In this document: one piece after another, positions 19,607 to 43,213 of the stretch
Layout: every line of letters starts with the position of its first letter
Numbering within the stretch: position 1 is the stretch's first letter
Origin: Brevibacillus sp.
GTDB lineage: Bacteria > Bacillota > Bacilli > Brevibacillales > Brevibacillaceae
DNA: 64,000 nucleotides
Direction: 5' to 3'
NCBI GenBank assembly: GCA_017656235.1
Contig: JACDOF010000001.1
Coordinates: forward strand, 558,001-622,000
The notes under the pieces: model-generated
Told to the model about the DNA's origin: nothing
Database searches by the model: none
The model's input: only the letters and a program-made list of their open reading frames with translations
Position numbers and translations under genes: made by a program

Positions 19607-22015
19607 ATGCTGAATCAGGAAAAGCCGGACTGGCTTTTGAACATGGAGAAGGTGCGGGAGCTGTCCGCAGAAGTGCTGTCCGAAGGGGAAGCTTATCAGC
19701 TGCTTCGTCGTCTTCAGGAGGCGAGAAGCCAACTTGCTGTCGCTGGAGCAGCAACAGCTTGCAAACCGGAGGAACTGGACCGCGCGGAGGCCGTTGTGTT
19801 GACTCGCCTGGCCGAAGCCCGAATGGCAAGGCCGGGAGGCTGCTCCCTGGCTGCGGAATGGCTGGAAAAAGCGCGCCGTCTTGATCCGGCTTACGCGCGC
19901 GCCGCCCATCTGCAGAGCAGGCTGTACCTGAAAGAACTGGCCGCGAGCAGGCTGTTTGGGGAACTGCCCGTGATCCGGGAAACAGACAATCCCTCTTCCC
20001 GCAAAAAACAGGCGGCAGCCCTGGTAGGAGCCGTCGGCGAGCAGCTGCGGCAGGTGGAAGCATGGCGGGATAGGCTGGTACAGGGCCGTTCCGCCGCCGA
20101 GGCGGCCCAAGATACGGAGCGAACTGACTGCTATGGCCAGTTGTTGCTGACCCTGGATGAAGTGAAAGCGGCCATGCACCAAGTGGCGGAGTCCGCCGGA
20201 GCGTACGCCGATTCCATTGAGGGAATGTTTTATTCGTCCGATTTGCTGAAGCAGGTTCAACAGGATGTCCGACAATTGGCAGCGAAGCTGGAGGATTGGG
20301 AAAACCTGTTGGCTGCCGCGAACGGTTCGACCGACCAACAGACGGCTGACGAGTTGTCAGCACTGGATATGGTTGACCAACTGGTGGGAATGGAAGAGAT
20401 CAAAACACGGGTCCGGCAATTGGCACAGTTTCTCCGCTATCGTCAACAGCGCAGTGAAAAAGGATGGGTACTGCACGACTCCCCCGAATTGCACCTGGTC
20501 TTGATGGGAAATCCGGGTACGGGGAAGACGACATTGGCCCGACTGATGGCCCGCTTGTACCACGAGTTGAGGCTGCTTGAGCGGGATGAGGTGATTGAAG
20601 TGGATCGCTCCCAATTGATCGGGGCTTACGTCGGACAGACGGAGCAGCGTACGATGGAAGCGATCAAACGAGCGGTGGGAGGCGTGCTGTTTATTGACGA
20701 GGCTTACAGTCTGAAGCGTGCGGACAGCCATGCAAACGATTACGGCCAGGCGGCCATAGACACGCTGGTCGCGGCAATGACCAGTGGTGAATTGGCCGGA
20801 AAGTTTGTGGTGATTCTGGCGGGCTATCCGGAAGAGATGCGCCACTTCCTCGATGCTAATCCTGGATTACGCAGCCGTTTTCCGGAAACTGGCCATCTTG
20901 TCCTGCCTGACTACAGCGATGAGCAGTTATTGGCGATCGCCGAGCAGGTGGCGGAACGAAATGATTTTGTGATCACCCCGGAAGCAAGGCAGGCAATCTT
21001 GCGGCGCATTGAGCGGGCGCGGGTAGATGACACGTTTGGCAATGCCCGTACTGTAAAGAACATCGTGCTGGATGCGATCTTTTCCAAAGCGAGGCGAATG
21101 GATGAGGGCAGGGAGCTGCACCTTGACGACTATACGATCCTGTATCCCGAGGATGTGGCAGCGTATCGGGAGGAGCGATCCACTGAAAACGGCGCCCCTG
21201 TAAACATGTCTGCCGAGGAGCAGCTTGACCAACTGGTTGGTTTGACGGAGCTGAAAGCGGAACTGCGGAAACTTTCCGCTTATTTAACCATCCAGCGGGA
21301 GCGTCAGGAGCGAGGGTTACCTGCCCTGCCGGTCGAAGTGCATGCAGTGTTTTCCGGAAATCCGGGAACGGGCAAAACGACAGTCGCCCGCCTTTACGCC
21401 CAGATGCTGCGTGAGTCGGGCTACCTCAAACGAGGTCACCTGGTAACCGTCAGCCGTGCCGATCTGGTTGCCGGATACGTAGGCCAGACCGCGCTCAGGA
21501 CGAAGCGGAAAATCCGCGAAGCATTGGGTGGTGTGCTGTTCATTGATGAAGCGTACAGCCTGCTCGGGGCAAGCGAACAGGATTTCGGCAGCGAAGCGAT
21601 CAACACCTTGGTTGATGAGATGAGCAGACATGCTGACAACCTGGTGGTTGTGCTGGCAGGCTATCCGGAACAGATGGAACTTCTCATGGCCAGTAATCCG
21701 GGCCTCGCCTCCCGTTTCAAGAAGCACTTCCGCTTTCCCGACTACACCCCGGACGAACTGCTGCAGATCCTGTGCAAGGCAGCAGCCGCGCGAGGCTACA
21801 AATTGTCGGAGGAAGCAGACAGCAAGCTGCTGACCCATTTACAGTCCCGCAAAACGGGGCAGCTCGAAGGAAACGCGCGGCTGGTGCACAACTTGCTGCA
21901 GGAGGCCATTCAGTACCAGGCCGTACGCCTTTCCGAACTGCCGCCAGCGGAACGCTCCACCGAGCGTCTCATGGAACTGCGTTGGGAAGATCTTGCCCCG
22001 CTGTTCTCAGTGTAG
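19607..22015 (+). CDS. tandem AAA+ ATPase, CbbX/SpoVK family, 802 aa
   Basis: Two complete CbbX-type AAA+ modules after a ~250-residue helical N-terminal region that looks TPR-like (AAEWLEKARRLDPAYARAA). Module 1: Walker A GNPGTGKTT near residue 301, Walker B VLFIDEAYSL, GLRSRF arginine finger. Module 2: Walker A GNPGTGKTT near 584, VLFIDEAYSL, GLASRF. Both look catalytically intact, so a hexameric remodeller is expected. SpoVK in Bacillus has a single module and acts in spore maturation; the substrate here is unknown. ATG 19607 follows GGGAGGAA by nine bases; an upstream in-frame ATG at 19538 has no ribosome site. Confidence 0.88.
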   Translation: MLNQEKPDWLLNMEKVRELSAEVLSEGEAYQLLRRLQEARSQLAVAGAATACKPEELDRAEAVVLTRLAEARMARPGGCSLAAEWLEKARRLDPAYARAAHLQSRLYLKELAASRLFGELPVIRETDNPSSRKKQAAALVGAVGEQLRQVEAWRDRLVQGRSAAEAAQDTERTDCYGQLLLTLDEVKAAMHQVAESAGAYADSIEGMFYSSDLLKQVQQDVRQLAAKLEDWENLLAAANGSTDQQTADELSALDMVDQLVGMEEIKTRVRQLAQFLRYRQQRSEKGWVLHDSPELHLVLMGNPGTGKTTLARLMARLYHELRLLERDEVIEVDRSQLIGAYVGQTEQRTMEAIKRAVGGVLFIDEAYSLKRADSHANDYGQAAIDTLVAAMTSGELAGKFVVILAGYPEEMRHFLDANPGLRSRFPETGHLVLPDYSDEQLLAIAEQVAERNDFVITPEARQAILRRIERARVDDTFGNARTVKNIVLDAIFSKARRMDEGRELHLDDYTILYPEDVAAYREERSTENGAPVNMSAEEQLDQLVGLTELKAELRKLSAYLTIQRERQERGLPALPVEVHAVFSGNPGTGKTTVARLYAQMLRESGYLKRGHLVTVSRADLVAGYVGQTALRTKRKIREALGGVLFIDEAYSLLGASEQDFGSEAINTLVDEMSRHADNLVVVLAGYPEQMELLMASNPGLASRFKKHFRFPDYTPDELLQILCKAAAARGYKLSEEADSKLLTHLQSRKTGQLEGNARLVHNLLQEAIQYQAVRLSELPPAERSTERLMELRWEDLAPLFSV

Positions 22016-22565: not shown

Positions 22566-22655
22566 TTTCCTACCTCCTTTCCCAAATGCGGTCATTATCA
22601 ACCTATGACGGCAATCTCAAAGAGAAACGGCGGCTATCAGCAGGAAACAGAAAGA

Positions 22656-22677: not shown

Positions 22678-22691
22678 AGATCAGATCGCAG

Positions 22692-23092
22692 ACAAAGCGT
22701 CGTGAGTTCGAGTGGGTAGTTTTTCGCGCTCACGTAAGGTGGCCAACCAGCAAAGAAGCATCTCAGATCGCTCCACGACGATCCGCAGGGGCAGCGGCAA
22801 AACGATGTCTATCAGCGATGTGACGCTGTTGCCGCTGCGATTTCCCTGCGGATACGCTGTTTCGCTAGCAGGTTGGCCAAATCCGTTCGCTTGCGAAAAA
22901 CCGCCCACACTCGTCCCATGCGAGAGCGTTGAAACTCGTTCAGCACCGTTTGCTGCCTGTTCACCTCAAGATGCGCTCGACATCCTTCAGATAGAATCCA
23001 AAGCGAGTTCTGACAGGAGAGAGGCCATTTTTCCGCACGAATGACTTTGCCAACCTTCCAAGCGGAGCAAGACCGAAGCGGGGGCATACGAT
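22692..23092. repeat. dispersed palindromic repeat, copy 1 (non-coding)
   Basis: Fills most of the ~630-base gap between 22565 and 23194. Bases 22709-22913 form a long imperfect palindrome: GAGTGGG..GTTTTTCGC, TGGCCAACC and ATCCGCAGGG..GCAGCGGCAA on the left are mirrored by TTGCCGCTGC..CCCTGCGGAT, GGTTGGCCA and GCGAAAAACCGCCC on the right. Bases 22979-23081 match, in reverse orientation, the element at 40869-40972: by eye about ten mismatches and one indel in ~104 positions. Frames crossing it are broken and lack ribosome sites. Confidence 0.75.
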
Positions 23093-23193: not shown

Positions 23194-23768
23194 ATGAAAC
23201 GATTCAGAGCGACAAAATCAATATGGTTGTTAGCAGTACCTGCTCTACTGGTGACAGCCGCTATTTAACTTTCTGATGCAGGAGCCGCTCCTTCACCATA
23301 TGCCGGTTTACCAGAGGAAAAGAAAAAGCTGGAGGAAAGAGCGGAAATGCTTAAGCAAGCGGCCAAAGCAAAAAAATAGATAAGGTTGAAATCGGTCCAA
23401 AAATCAAACAGAAAGACAAGCCGGTTAAGACTGAGATATTGGACGTCGTAGACGATCCTCTCAGTAAAAAGGTAATCACGTTTACGAACGGATGGGTAAG
23501 TGAAACCAATGGCACGATGAACGGAAAAACGGTAGGGGTTGGGGTCGGTTCTCTAACCGACGATCCGGAACAGGGAGTCGTACTGGTGAGAGAGTTTGAT
23601 GAAAAGAGGGCTCTGATCTCCACAGTACAGGTGTTGACTCCTGAGAAAGTGGGACCGGTAAAAATTGTCGATTACGGGGGAATGAAGCTGACCCTCGCGG
23701 CTGAAGGGGGACAGCAGTTTATTTTCAACGTAGCCGCCAAAAAGTTTGTGGAACGGGAACAGGAATAG
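23194..23768 (+). pseudogene. broken gene for a small secreted protein
   Basis: Starts MKRFRATKSIWLLAVPALL, a clear signal peptide. It hits an in-frame TAA at 23266, resumes as LSDAGAAPSPYAGLPEEKKK, then hits TAG at 23377 inside a run of seven A's. Adding one A there restores the frame IDKVEIGPKIKQKDKPV..., which continues to a normal stop at 23766. Reading it this way gives one exported protein of about 190 residues with a C-terminal beta-rich domain (NGWVSETNGTMNGKTVG). Two independent lesions make it a likely pseudogene, although the A-run lesion could be a sequencing error. The parent family is not recognised. A weak ribosome site precedes it. Confidence 0.7.
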
Positions 23769-27125: not shown

Positions 27126-27237
27126 AACTAATAGAGGTTAGCTGCGGCTTGACGATGATTGCGGTCATCGTTGTGACAGCCGTTCAAGCGATTCATTCAC
27201 AAGCGTATTTTGCAGCCGTACACAACTTCATAACATC

Positions 27238-27333
27238 TACCAAACGGGAGCCGAGCATGGTCGGCTGAGAGTGTAACACCTGCGTTACTAACCGTAGAAC
27301 CTGACCTGGGTCATGCCAGCGGAGGAAGAGGTA
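27238..27333 (+). ncRNA. TPP riboswitch (THI element)
   Basis: The aptamer is recognised by its conserved segments in order: ACGGGAGC, GGCTGAGAG, ACCGTAGAACCTGACCTGGG and TCATGCCAGCGGAGGAAG. TACC and GGTA close the outer helix. It binds thiamin pyrophosphate and lowers expression of the downstream thi genes. Two T-rich terminators lie between it and tenI. Confidence 0.95.
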
Positions 27334-27416
27334 CGAATGAAGACTGGAAAGCGGCCAGTCGCGGCACGTCGGCGAAGTCTCGCCAGATGGTGTCGCGCTG
27401 CTTGCTGTCGGCGTAT

Positions 27417-38976: not shown

Positions 38977-40740
38977 ATGAACCACACCGAATCCGATGTA
39001 TCTCTCGTTCGCGTACCTGTCCATCTGCGCCAATTTGTTGTCGAACAACATTATGAACGGTATACGCCGATTGATCATGCGGTATGGCGCTACGTCATGC
39101 GGCAAAACCGCAACTATCTCGGCCAGCGTGCACACAGCGCCTACCTGGAAGGGCTTCGGACCTCCGGAATCGGAGTCGAGCGGATTCCCAAAATCTCTGA
39201 AATGAACGAATGCCTGGCCCAGATCGGCTGGGGGGCCGTCACGATCAACGGATTTATTCCGGCGGTTGCGTTCTTTGACTTTCAGGCACACGGTATTCTG
39301 CCCATTGCCTGTGACATCCGCACGTACGATCACATCGCGTACACACCGGCCCCGGACATCATTCACGAGGCAGCGGGACACGCTCCGATCATCAAGGATG
39401 AAAAGTATCGCACCTTTCTGAAAATATTCGGGGAAATCGGCTCCAAAGCCCTTTCCTCCCGCGAAGATTATGAAGTGTACGAAGCCATACGCCGCCTCTC
39501 CGTGGTCAAGGAGGACCCCAGTGCCACGCCGGAAGAAGTGGCGGAAGCGGAAGCCGATCTGGAGCGGAAAGTGGCGGCTGTCACGGAGGTGTCGGAAGCG
39601 GCGCAGGTGTCCCGGCTCTATTGGTGGACAGTGGAATACGGGCTGATCGGCGAATTGGACGATCCGCAGATCTACGGTGCCGGGCTGCTTTCTTCCGTGG
39701 GCGAGAGCATCAGCTGCATGAAAGAGGATGTAAAGAAACTTCCCTTCTCGCTGAAAGCCTGCATCGAAACAGATTTCGACATTACCAAGCCGCAGCCGCA
39801 GTTGTTTGTCTGTAAAGATTTTGACGAACTGATCGAGGCCGTCCGTGAGTTTTCCAAGACGATGGCTTTTTCCGTTGGCGGAACCGAAAGCCTGCGCAAA
39901 GCCTTGCAGATGGGGCAGGTCTCAACCAGCGTATACAGCTCCGGTTTGCAGGTGAGCGGCGTATTGAGCGAACTGGAGTACGATGCTGCGGGAGAGGCGG
40001 TCTACTTGAAAACCAGCGGTCCGACAGCACTCGCCGTCAACGACAAGGAACTACCCGGGCACGGCAAGTCCTATCACCGCGAAGGGTTTGGTTCGCCGAT
40101 CGGGCTGTTGGCCGACGAACCGACGCCGCTGGAGTCGTTTTCGGACGCACAGCTTGCCGAGAAAGGCATTGTCGTGGATGAAACGGTGACATTGACATTT
40201 GCCTCAGGTGTGCAGGTGTCCGGAAAAGTAGCCTACATCCGGAGGGAAAACGACAAGGTCGTGCTGATTGGTTTTGACGATTGCACTGTCCGCTACGGGG
40301 AAAAAACGTTGTTCCGTTCGGAATGGGGCACGTTTGACATGGCCGTTGGGGCGAAGATTGTCTCCGTCTTTGCCGGCGCTGCCGATCGTGAGGCGTTTGA
40401 GACCGGTACGCATCAACCGTCGGCCGTGCAGATCAAACCGCCGGTTTACACGGAAGCCCAAAAACGGCAGCATCAGCTTTACCAAATTGTGCGCGATATC
40501 CGCGAAGGGGAGCCGGAAGCTGATGAAGCGGCGGAAGGTCTGCTGCATGTTCTCCGCGAGTTGGAGCAGCACTATCCTACCGACTGGCTGCTGCGTTTGG
40601 AAATTCTGGAAATCCTGCATGAGCGTAACATGCGGGGGGATGTGCAAACCTCAATACGCCGCCAACTGGAAGAGATCGGCGCAGGAAACCCCGAAGCTCG
40701 TCCTTTGATCGAGAACGGGTTGGCCCTGCTTGCGGCATAA
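38977..40740 (+). CDS. aromatic amino acid hydroxylase (phenylalanine 4-monooxygenase type), 587 aa
   Basis: Fe(II)- and pterin-dependent hydroxylase turning phenylalanine into tyrosine (substrate by analogy). Iron ligands His 130 and His 135 in PDIIHEAAGHAP and Glu 220 in YWWTVEYGL are present. The catalytic domain ends near residue 310. The remaining ~270 residues are an unusual C-terminal extension with a beta-rich part (VDETVTLTFASGVQVSGKV) and a helical tail. Bacterial enzymes of the Pseudomonas type are ~260 aa, so this is the long Bacilli form. ATG 38977 follows AAGGGGG by about nine bases. Possible catabolite control from an upstream cre. Confidence 0.9.
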   Translation: MNHTESDVSLVRVPVHLRQFVVEQHYERYTPIDHAVWRYVMRQNRNYLGQRAHSAYLEGLRTSGIGVERIPKISEMNECLAQIGWGAVTINGFIPAVAFFDFQAHGILPIACDIRTYDHIAYTPAPDIIHEAAGHAPIIKDEKYRTFLKIFGEIGSKALSSREDYEVYEAIRRLSVVKEDPSATPEEVAEAEADLERKVAAVTEVSEAAQVSRLYWWTVEYGLIGELDDPQIYGAGLLSSVGESISCMKEDVKKLPFSLKACIETDFDITKPQPQLFVCKDFDELIEAVREFSKTMAFSVGGTESLRKALQMGQVSTSVYSSGLQVSGVLSELEYDAAGEAVYLKTSGPTALAVNDKELPGHGKSYHREGFGSPIGLLADEPTPLESFSDAQLAEKGIVVDETVTLTFASGVQVSGKVAYIRRENDKVVLIGFDDCTVRYGEKTLFRSEWGTFDMAVGAKIVSVFAGAADREAFETGTHQPSAVQIKPPVYTEAQKRQHQLYQIVRDIREGEPEADEAAEGLLHVLRELEQHYPTDWLLRLEILEILHERNMRGDVQTSIRRQLEEIGAGNPEARPLIENGLALLAA

Positions 40741-40760: not shown

Positions 40761-41016
40761 GGGGACAGCGGCCATTTACCATTCCTCTCCGTTGCCAACC
40801 ACCAAGGAAGCGGGCGGGCGCAAAAGCAGCGCTGCTGCGCCGTTTGTCACAGGTTGCGCCCGTACGCTCCCGCTTCGGGCTTGCTCCGCTCGGATGGTTG
40901 GCAAAGTCGTTCGTGCGGAAAATGGCCGCTCTCCTGTCAGAACTCGTTTTGTATTCAATCTGCAGGATGACGAGTGCGGGCGAAAAACGCCCCACTCGTG
41001 TTCACGACACTTTGCC
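40761..41016. repeat. dispersed palindromic repeat, copy 2 (non-coding)
   Basis: Fills the 326-base gap after the hydroxylase. A large imperfect palindrome runs 40761-40934: GACAGCGGCCATTTACC, GCCAACCA, GAAGCGGG, CGGGCGCAA on the left; TTGCGCCCG, CCCGCTTC, TGGTTGGC, GGAAAATGGCCGCTCTCC on the right; AGCAGCGCTGCT (40825-40836) lies inside. A second strong hairpin, CGAGTG..GGGCG/CGCCC..CACTCG, sits at 40971-40998. Bases 40869-41016 match copy 1 (22692-22726 and 22979-23081) in opposite orientation. Confidence 0.75.
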
Positions 41017-41066
41017 TGCAAACTGAAGCCATCCAACGGGAAAGAAGAGACGCAGCCGCTGACCGT

Positions 41067-42932: not shown

Positions 42933-43070
42933 GTAACAGCATGGAAAAAAAGCCGCAGGCGATGCAGCACCTGCGGCGGGTACAATAGGACGTTCCCCAA
43001 GGGGATCGGCTCAAATCGCAAAGAAGTAGATCACCCGGTTGCCAGACTCAAGGGTGATCTATTTCTTTTT
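42933..43070 (+). ncRNA. candidate antitoxin antisense RNA
   Basis: Predicted to run from about 42933 to a terminator formed by TAGATCACCC (43027-43036) and GGGTGATCTA (43052-43061) followed by TTTCTTTTT. It would be antisense to the 3' part of the toxin transcript, including its stop codon, the arrangement of txpA/RatA and bsrG/SR4. RNA ends are predicted, not observed. Confidence 0.5.
42945..42977 (-). terminator. terminator of the toxin transcript
   Basis: GCCGCAGG and CCTGCGGC pair perfectly on the minus strand and are followed by seven T's (plus-strand A run 42945-42951). Confidence 0.8.
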
Positions 43071-43142
43071 CTGGAAGGACAGCATGGCGATGACCAGCAA
43101 CCCAAACGTCAGCATCAGGGAGATGGCTTCGTATACTGTCAT
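43059..43142 (-). CDS. holin-like small membrane toxin, 27 aa (type I toxin)
   Basis: MTVYEAISLMLTFGLLVIAM then LSFQKKK: a single hydrophobic helix with a Lys tail, matching the putative holin-like toxin family (Hol_Tox), whose members start MTVYEALxLML and act by membrane insertion. ATG 43142 lies about nine bases after AAAGGGGGTG; an ATG six bases earlier is too close. The ribosome site is partly paired in a CATC..CCCC/GGGG..ATG hairpin (43146-43170). An extended -10 (TGG-TATAAT) at 43214-43222 and a terminator at 42977-42945 give a short mRNA. The reverse strand has a matching antisense RNA. Confidence 0.8.
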   Translation of the reverse strand: MTVYEAISLMLTFGLLVIAMLSFQKKK

Positions 43143-43145
43143 AAG

Positions 43146-43170
43146 CATCACCCCCTTTCGAGAGGGGATG
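43146..43170 (-). promoter_or_regulatory. ribosome-site hairpin in toxin mRNA
   Basis: In the minus-strand RNA, CATCCCC pairs with the Shine-Dalgarno GGGG and following GATG around a loop containing TCGAAAG. Pairing would hold back translation of the toxin. Confidence 0.5.
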
Positions 43171-43213
43171 AGCTGACCACCCTTGAGGAGCCGTTAGCTA
43201 TTGTACGTACCAT

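Follow-up and report, generated by a model that had tools for sequence, protein, structure and literature searches.

How did two stretches of DNA that match each other on opposite strands come to stand near genes in a Brevibacillus genome, and what kind of element are they? The window analysed here is the whole stretch of 64,000 nucleotides, G000:C1:558001-622000, where G000 denotes the window's own genome (3.6 Mb in 31 contigs). The match had been proposed by eye in an earlier note for 22979-23081 against 40869-40972, and the pairwise alignment bears it out: 98 of 110 columns of the main block are identical, with one gap column, and the score of 157 is far from the chance level, the best of 200 shuffles reaching 24. 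The second block, proposed for 22692-22726 against 40981-41016, has 37 identical positions out of 46 (the shuffles were run for the main block only). The repeat scan of the window yields inverted arms at 23029-23090/40861-40922 (62 nt, 90%), 22973-23031/40919-40977 (59 nt, 88%) and 22681-22733/40974-41026 (53 nt, 79%). A tandem domain repeat within one ORF is also present at 20374-21700, its direct repeats being 849 bases apart; we take the repeated domain to be ATPase-like from its GNPGTGKT motif.

Many further genomic copies place both stretches in one repeat family, here in two orientations. With the stretch around 41 kb (copy 2) as a query at least 69 matches are found in G000, and with that around 23 kb (copy 1) at least 54. 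Merging the matches gives at least 61 clusters in G000, at least 15 and at least 31 in two congeneric species (G001 and G002, respectively), and at least 107 over the three genomes. At E 0.001 copy 1 matches these three genomes only out of 39, and none of the 36 further genomes; copy 2 was used as a query for the genus genomes only. The core of the repeat is overlapped by a codon-scored ORF in three of 91 copies of the genus-wide part, the A module.

Complete copies are about 262 bp long in G001 and G002, and G000 has a long form of 546-613 bp; the ends are CAGnnTGYWGACAAAG...CTTTGTCTnCAnnCTG. The common left end, CAGnnTG..GACAAAG, in many copies directly follows a hairpin that varies between copies. 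The right boundary in G001 and G002 is CTTTGTCTnCAnnCTG or a near match to it, after which many copies show their hairpin a second time. Of the 44 A-type copies of these two genomes put through an automatic junction search, 30 have a target duplication of 14-32 bp (at least 20 bp in 27 of them) and 14 have none; at 176 displaced control junctions there was no duplication. Among copies with both end repeats scoring at least 12 of 16, duplications are present in six of seven (G001) and 23 of 27 (G002). With the junctions fixed, a strict scan for end pairs, which requires both ends to be well kept and has wrong pairings among its pairs, gave duplications of at least 10 bp in 20 of 57 pairs versus 12 of 710 displaced controls.

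Most of these duplications are hairpins: for 25 of the 30, at least 98% of their own shuffles fold no better than they do, the other five being one 14-bp A/T match without a hairpin, two partial matches, and two under the threshold (p 0.05 and 0.08). In 23 of the 28 duplications of at least 17 bp, the far copy is followed by a T-rich tract or the near copy is preceded by an A-rich one. The duplicated hairpins are thus intrinsic terminators by form, as predicted from their sequence. In codon-scored gene calls, the 30 duplication-bearing copies have neighbouring genes arranged ++ in 11 cases, convergently in ten, -- in seven and divergently in two; for comparison, the gaps of at least 60 bp in the 64-kb window are ++ in 18 cases, divergent in seven, -- in five and convergent in four.

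Paired hairpins could also be local tandem duplications, if recombination or gene conversion between terminators had been what spread the repeats. Some loci indeed contain nested or tandem copies (C10:89447-90355, C11:46214-46940); in the former, two copies with identical printed left parts are 526 bp apart. However, in most of the 30 cases the junctions are no more than a few bases away from the end repeats, while displaced junctions yield nothing, and we consider such spread very improbable. Rather, the repeat looks like a miniature inverted-repeat transposable element (MITE): it is short and multicopy, has terminal inverted repeats and target duplications, and, as described below, has an autonomous partner with the same ends.

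The partner was seen in the search with the end pattern, which produced pairs about 1,545 bp apart in G001. They are insertion sequences (ISs) of about 1.54 kb with the same ends as the MITE. Their transposase matches NF033551 at 486 and 479 bits (cut-off 270) and PF13751, PF05598 and PF01609 above the cut-offs, which is the IS1182 family; there are 14 transposase matches in G001. Out of ten IS copies in this genome, six have perfect hairpin duplications of 20-31 bp, L207 is flanked on both sides by slightly different versions of its hairpin, L208 and L277 have one hairpin in common at their outer ends, and L205 shows no more than 8 bp. A 25-bp hairpin duplication bounds copy L229, and no exact repeat of 12 bp or longer was found around copy L239. 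L208 and L277 have the same orientation, and while their outer flanks are the same hairpin, the inner flanks differ; the region G001:C1:2309612-2317029 looks like a 7.4-kb composite transposon that moved as a unit. In the copies read, the transposase frame stays open throughout the IS: the stop TGA of L207 is made up of the right-end TG and the first base of the target, A, and in L209 the frame continues into the target hairpin.

No IS1182 transposase was found in the 31 contigs of G000, either at E 1e-5 with one protein or at E 1e-60 with the family, hence the G000 copies look orphaned; an IS may have been missed in an assembly gap. In G002 the transposase matches seen all belong to a single decayed copy of 942 bp.

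Of the 20 loci examined from a family-wide search (L216 being the L207 copy again), ten, coming from G001, G014, G018 and G052, have the IS enclosed by hairpin duplications. Class-wide, 48 of 151 genomes matched the IS1182 transposase, and seven of the 30 loci listed combine CAG/CTG ends with hairpin duplications of 18-28 bp, one locus, L254, being the G014 copy L217 again. L247 has CAG/CTG ends but different hairpins on the two sides. A transposase tree was built for 28 of the 37 loci; those with the longest ORF under 400 aa were left out, including the hairpin-duplicating L254, L259, L230 and L240, and two rows, L269 and L251, are probably not transposases, judging by branch lengths. Seven of the eight rows labelled as hairpin-duplicating fall in a clade of 11 (support 100/99), and none in a clade of nine (support 98/99), some members of which have AGAGGCTGGGACA-type ends. 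The label changes four times on the tree, and two of 500 shuffles are as low; since four changes are needed, the tree does not establish a single origin of hairpin duplication.

Group IIC introns insert beside intrinsic terminators, and the insertion of the repeats beside terminator-like hairpins resembles this target, which would suit entry by an intron-like or retro route favouring terminators and involving no DDE transposase. Such introns are retroelements without inverted ends or target duplication. The repeats, in contrast, end in inverted repeats, lie between direct duplications (mostly of 20-32 bp) and share their ends with the IS1182-family elements, and no group II intron family was found by Rfam in the window at the gathering score. 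Hence the probability of this route is close to nil, and a group IIC intron as such is ruled out by the inverted ends and the duplications, the elements with the same ends encoding a DDE transposase.

Thus, the two stretches in the window are very probably decayed copies of a MITE that owes its spread to a DDE transposase of the IS1182 family, one that chooses hairpins, in particular terminators, and duplicates them. It remains to describe which parts of the element each of them has.

The long form in G000 consists of the A module, then a vestigial right end, then about 300 bp comprising two further modules, B and C. It is bounded as one unit by duplications at C1:1118147 (32 of 33 bases), C4:141441 (22 of 23) and C9:23194 (18 of 21), as well as at C15:26627 (15 of 17) and C1:984798 (23 bases, exact). 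A scan of G000, which had no control, turned up duplications at ten end pairs. Six of these are hairpin-like (C1:124323, C1:1118147, C12:23174, C4:141441, C9:23194, C15:26627), and the four that are short or weakly folded (C1:473981, C1:946436, C13:83334, C18:10632) may be due to chance. Copies of 437 and 376 bp with duplications lack inner parts. The possibility that B-C is a separate MITE was rejected, as C5:152722 and C6:54734 begin with the left end of the A element and thus derive from the long form by internal deletion. The long form may itself be a composite, the genus-wide element of about 262 bp with about 300 bp of DNA perhaps captured behind the vestigial right end.

A second MITE family of about 253 bp has the same ends and 41 matches in G000. 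Three of its copies, L280:205-457, L281:202-454 and L282:209-459 (in G000:C2, C5 and C1, respectively), have hairpin duplications of 24/24, 20/21 and 26/27 bases, and L283, a 105-bp end pair, has none. The last 70 bases of the 613-bp copy of the main family belong to this second family, thus the copy is a hybrid.

The coordinates of both window copies are given relative to the complete long copy G000:C9:23194-23757. Copy 2 (40767..41025, plus strand) aligns to its positions 35-73, 103-269 and 513-559, the alignment being seen also in the multiple alignment. Compared to the long copy, it has lost 34 bases on the left, including the terminal inverted repeat, and two internal segments of 29 and 243 bases. 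The A module, the left palindrome, occupies 40767..40977 (plus strand) and is the genus-wide part, common to the element of about 262 bp of the two congeneric species; positions 28-155 of the copy 2 query match copies in G001 and G002, the longer matches having 73-80% identity. The C module, the right end of the long form, occupies 40974..41025 (plus strand) and is directly joined to A through the loss of the 243 bases, long-copy position 269 being followed by 513 at window position 40974. The right terminal inverted repeat (41010..41025, plus strand) ends with ...AACTG and reads CAGTTTGCAGGCAAAG on the minus strand, a pattern match with one mismatch at G000:C1:599010-599025.

Copy 1 (22682..23090, minus strand) is of the long form; it lacks the left 155 bases and runs without a break from long-copy position 156 up to the right end. 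Positions 156-556 of the long copy and window positions 23090-22690 are 90.6% identical. Its right terminal inverted repeat (22682..22697, minus strand) reads CAGATCGCAGACAAAG on the plus strand, again a one-mismatch pattern match (G000:C1:580682-580697). The B module, the middle palindrome, lies at 22732..22972 (minus strand; GGCCAACC...GGTTGGCC), with approximate boundaries from the multiple alignment and the architecture table; it is present in complete long copies and absent from copy 2.

The earlier note had correctly observed that the two blocks adjoin in copy 2 and are separated in copy 1, the separation being about 243 bases as measured on the complete long copy. The direction of change it had suggested, a palindrome inserted into copy 1, should be reversed. 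The duplication-bounded copies of 546-613 bp carry the middle palindrome, hence it was copy 2 that lost it, and insertion into copy 1 is ruled out, the long form being a duplication-bounded unit. As for the suggestion to align all copies, define the ends and see whether copy 1 is a composite, the ends have been found and copy 1 is a 5'-truncated long form, with the compositeness possibly residing in the long form itself. At the ends of copies 1 and 2, neither a target duplication nor a clear hairpin was found at either site, and only the right terminal inverted repeat is retained in both. As neither copy keeps a duplication, the mode of their insertion is deduced from the relatives. The window copies are worn, ordinary relics of a MITE, and the interest rests with the family.

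Position just after a gene end had been claimed for both copies, and it holds for copy 2. The alignable part of this copy starts 27 bases downstream of a 587-aa ORF (38977..40740, plus strand, from the ORF list), presumably an aromatic amino-acid hydroxylase-like protein. For copy 1 the position is not confirmed by codon-score gene calls, which place it between genes beginning at 22601 (minus strand, with a weak score) and at 23439 (plus strand). Judged by the 587-aa protein, the nearest named relatives are Anoxybacillus sediminis PCH 117 (76% identity) and Brevibacillus thermoruber 423 (75%). Behind the orthologue of this ORF the repeat is absent in nine of nine named relatives. In six of the nine (L061, L062, L064, L066, L068, L071) a plain stem followed by T's is seen by eye shortly after the stop of the orthologue. 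A stem scan behind the orthologue, made without a shuffled control, gives scores of 8-13 in the nine relatives versus 8 in the window's own region and does not separate them; moreover, the score-8 stem in the window uses bases just left of and within copy 2. The site might fit, weakly, an insertion into the terminator of that gene with later loss of both hairpin copies.

Another possibility is that the repeats are structured RNA genes or regulatory elements of 3' untranslated regions maintained at gene ends by selection, the end repeats and flanking hairpins being parts of the RNA. A long hairpin is common to 18 A-type sequences from three species: 95.6% of the cells are paired, as compared to 36-50% with the partners slid by 1-3 columns. 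In 15 of the 59 pairs both sides have changed. Gene 3' ends are favoured as well, 28 of the 30 duplication-bearing copies lying outside divergent gaps. The covariation score is 0.248 versus 0.132 in shuffles, and none of 500 shuffles reach 0.248, with the structure derived from the same alignment. On the other hand, 70 of the 500 shuffles reach 15 such pairs, and with 35 further pair types the alignment has fewer than the shuffles do on average (40). The flanking hairpins vary between copies yet match within one copy, as target duplications and not as a conserved part, and the same ends and duplications bound the transposase-bearing IS of about 1.5 kb. No Rfam family over the repeats reaches the gathering score. 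Therefore selection for an RNA gene or regulatory element is an improbable explanation of the repeats. The hairpin is maintained between species, be it as RNA or as DNA. Elsewhere in the window, a full-length Rfam BsrG match (42954-43205, minus strand) scores 144.9 bits versus the gathering score of 55 and contains a short ORF, MTVYEAISLMLTFGLLVIAMLSFQKKK, resembling a type I toxin-antitoxin locus in sequence; and a TPP riboswitch at 27234-27344 (plus strand), with 55.2 bits, is barely over the gathering score of 54.3.

The MITE reading suggests the following scheme. The complete element, with its short terminal inverted repeats (CAGnnTGYWGACAAAG), would fold as a long imperfect hairpin. An IS1182-family transposase, presumably also the one that moved the window copies, would pick hairpin-forming DNA, in practice intrinsic transcription terminators, cleaving it at the two feet of the hairpin. 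The element ends would be joined there, and gap repair would give a complete hairpin on each side, mostly of 20-32 bp. Most of the T-tract would stay with the far hairpin and be lost to the near one; hence the upstream gene would gain the element as a 3' tail and would still end at a terminator. The longer version in G000, A with about 300 bp added, would have arisen probably via a downstream surrogate right end and then spread, and the window copies would afterwards have lost their ends and inner parts.

A bolder proposal, which we put forward tentatively and consider rather doubtful, is that a clade of the IS1182 family reads the terminator as folded DNA, cuts at both feet and copies it whole, so that its MITEs become host-tolerated transcribed domains of 3' untranslated regions ending at the copied terminator, their hairpin being kept for its action in the 3' end of many mRNAs.

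This provides a clear, testable rule for a transposase family that has received little study, some members duplicating whole terminator hairpins and others leaving none, and structure-guided target choice by a DDE transposase becomes directly testable. Entry at gene ends with the terminator given back may be a route to high copy number with little harm; the load, about sixty clusters of the main family and 41 second-family matches in a small genome of 3.6 Mb, shows the scale. Gene-end repeats elsewhere can be screened for the same hairpin-duplication signature.

Among described systems, the MITEs of ISMac2 from Methanosarcina acetivorans are also IS1182-derived, with lengths of 160 and 169 bp, but their direct repeats are of 4 and 0 bases, and terminator targeting is absent from the available part of their description (PMC3852290). 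BOX, RUP and SPRITE of Streptococcus pneumoniae are alike in being numerous short intergenic repeats, clustered and inserted into each other (PMC10969869, PMC3049150); they differ, by description, in that no hairpin target duplication is reported for them in the passages available (PMC10969869). In the accessible text of the same MITE review the word IS1182 does not occur, and the passages on terminators do not describe terminator duplication (PMC10969869). No account of whole-terminator duplication by IS1182-family elements or their MITEs was found in the titles, abstract openings or available passages of the papers listed by the literature search, ISfinder and subscription papers lying outside it.

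According to the part available of a 2025 paper, IS1182-type elements are little known and variable in duplication, deletion and structure recognition (PMC12056078). ISPse1, a captured member of the family, is described with a 4-bp direct repeat in the section seen (PMC3281130), hence the hairpin-duplication rule is not family-wide. The hairpin-duplicating ISs seen here have CAG/CTG ends, whereas several class relatives without hairpin duplications have AGAGGCTGGGACA-type ends. In the accessible portion of a large survey, IS1182 is one of the families that occur in excess between convergent genes (PMC9208149), which fits a terminator target.

The closest likeness is to IS1272/TnSha1 of staphylococci. 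As presented in the passages available (PMC4923244), these too have an IS1182-family transposase and target hairpins, many of them terminators, with no primary sequence specificity; the transposase frame likewise has no stop inside the IS; and a degenerate end of IS1272 is used to mobilise a neighbouring gene, which may be compared with the surrogate right end proposed for the long form. The outcome at the target is different. The hairpin attacked by IS1272 is partly deleted and no duplication is formed (PMC4923244), whereas in the elements described here the hairpin stands on both sides in most copies. What is new relative to the known hairpin targeting is the duplication of the entire hairpin.
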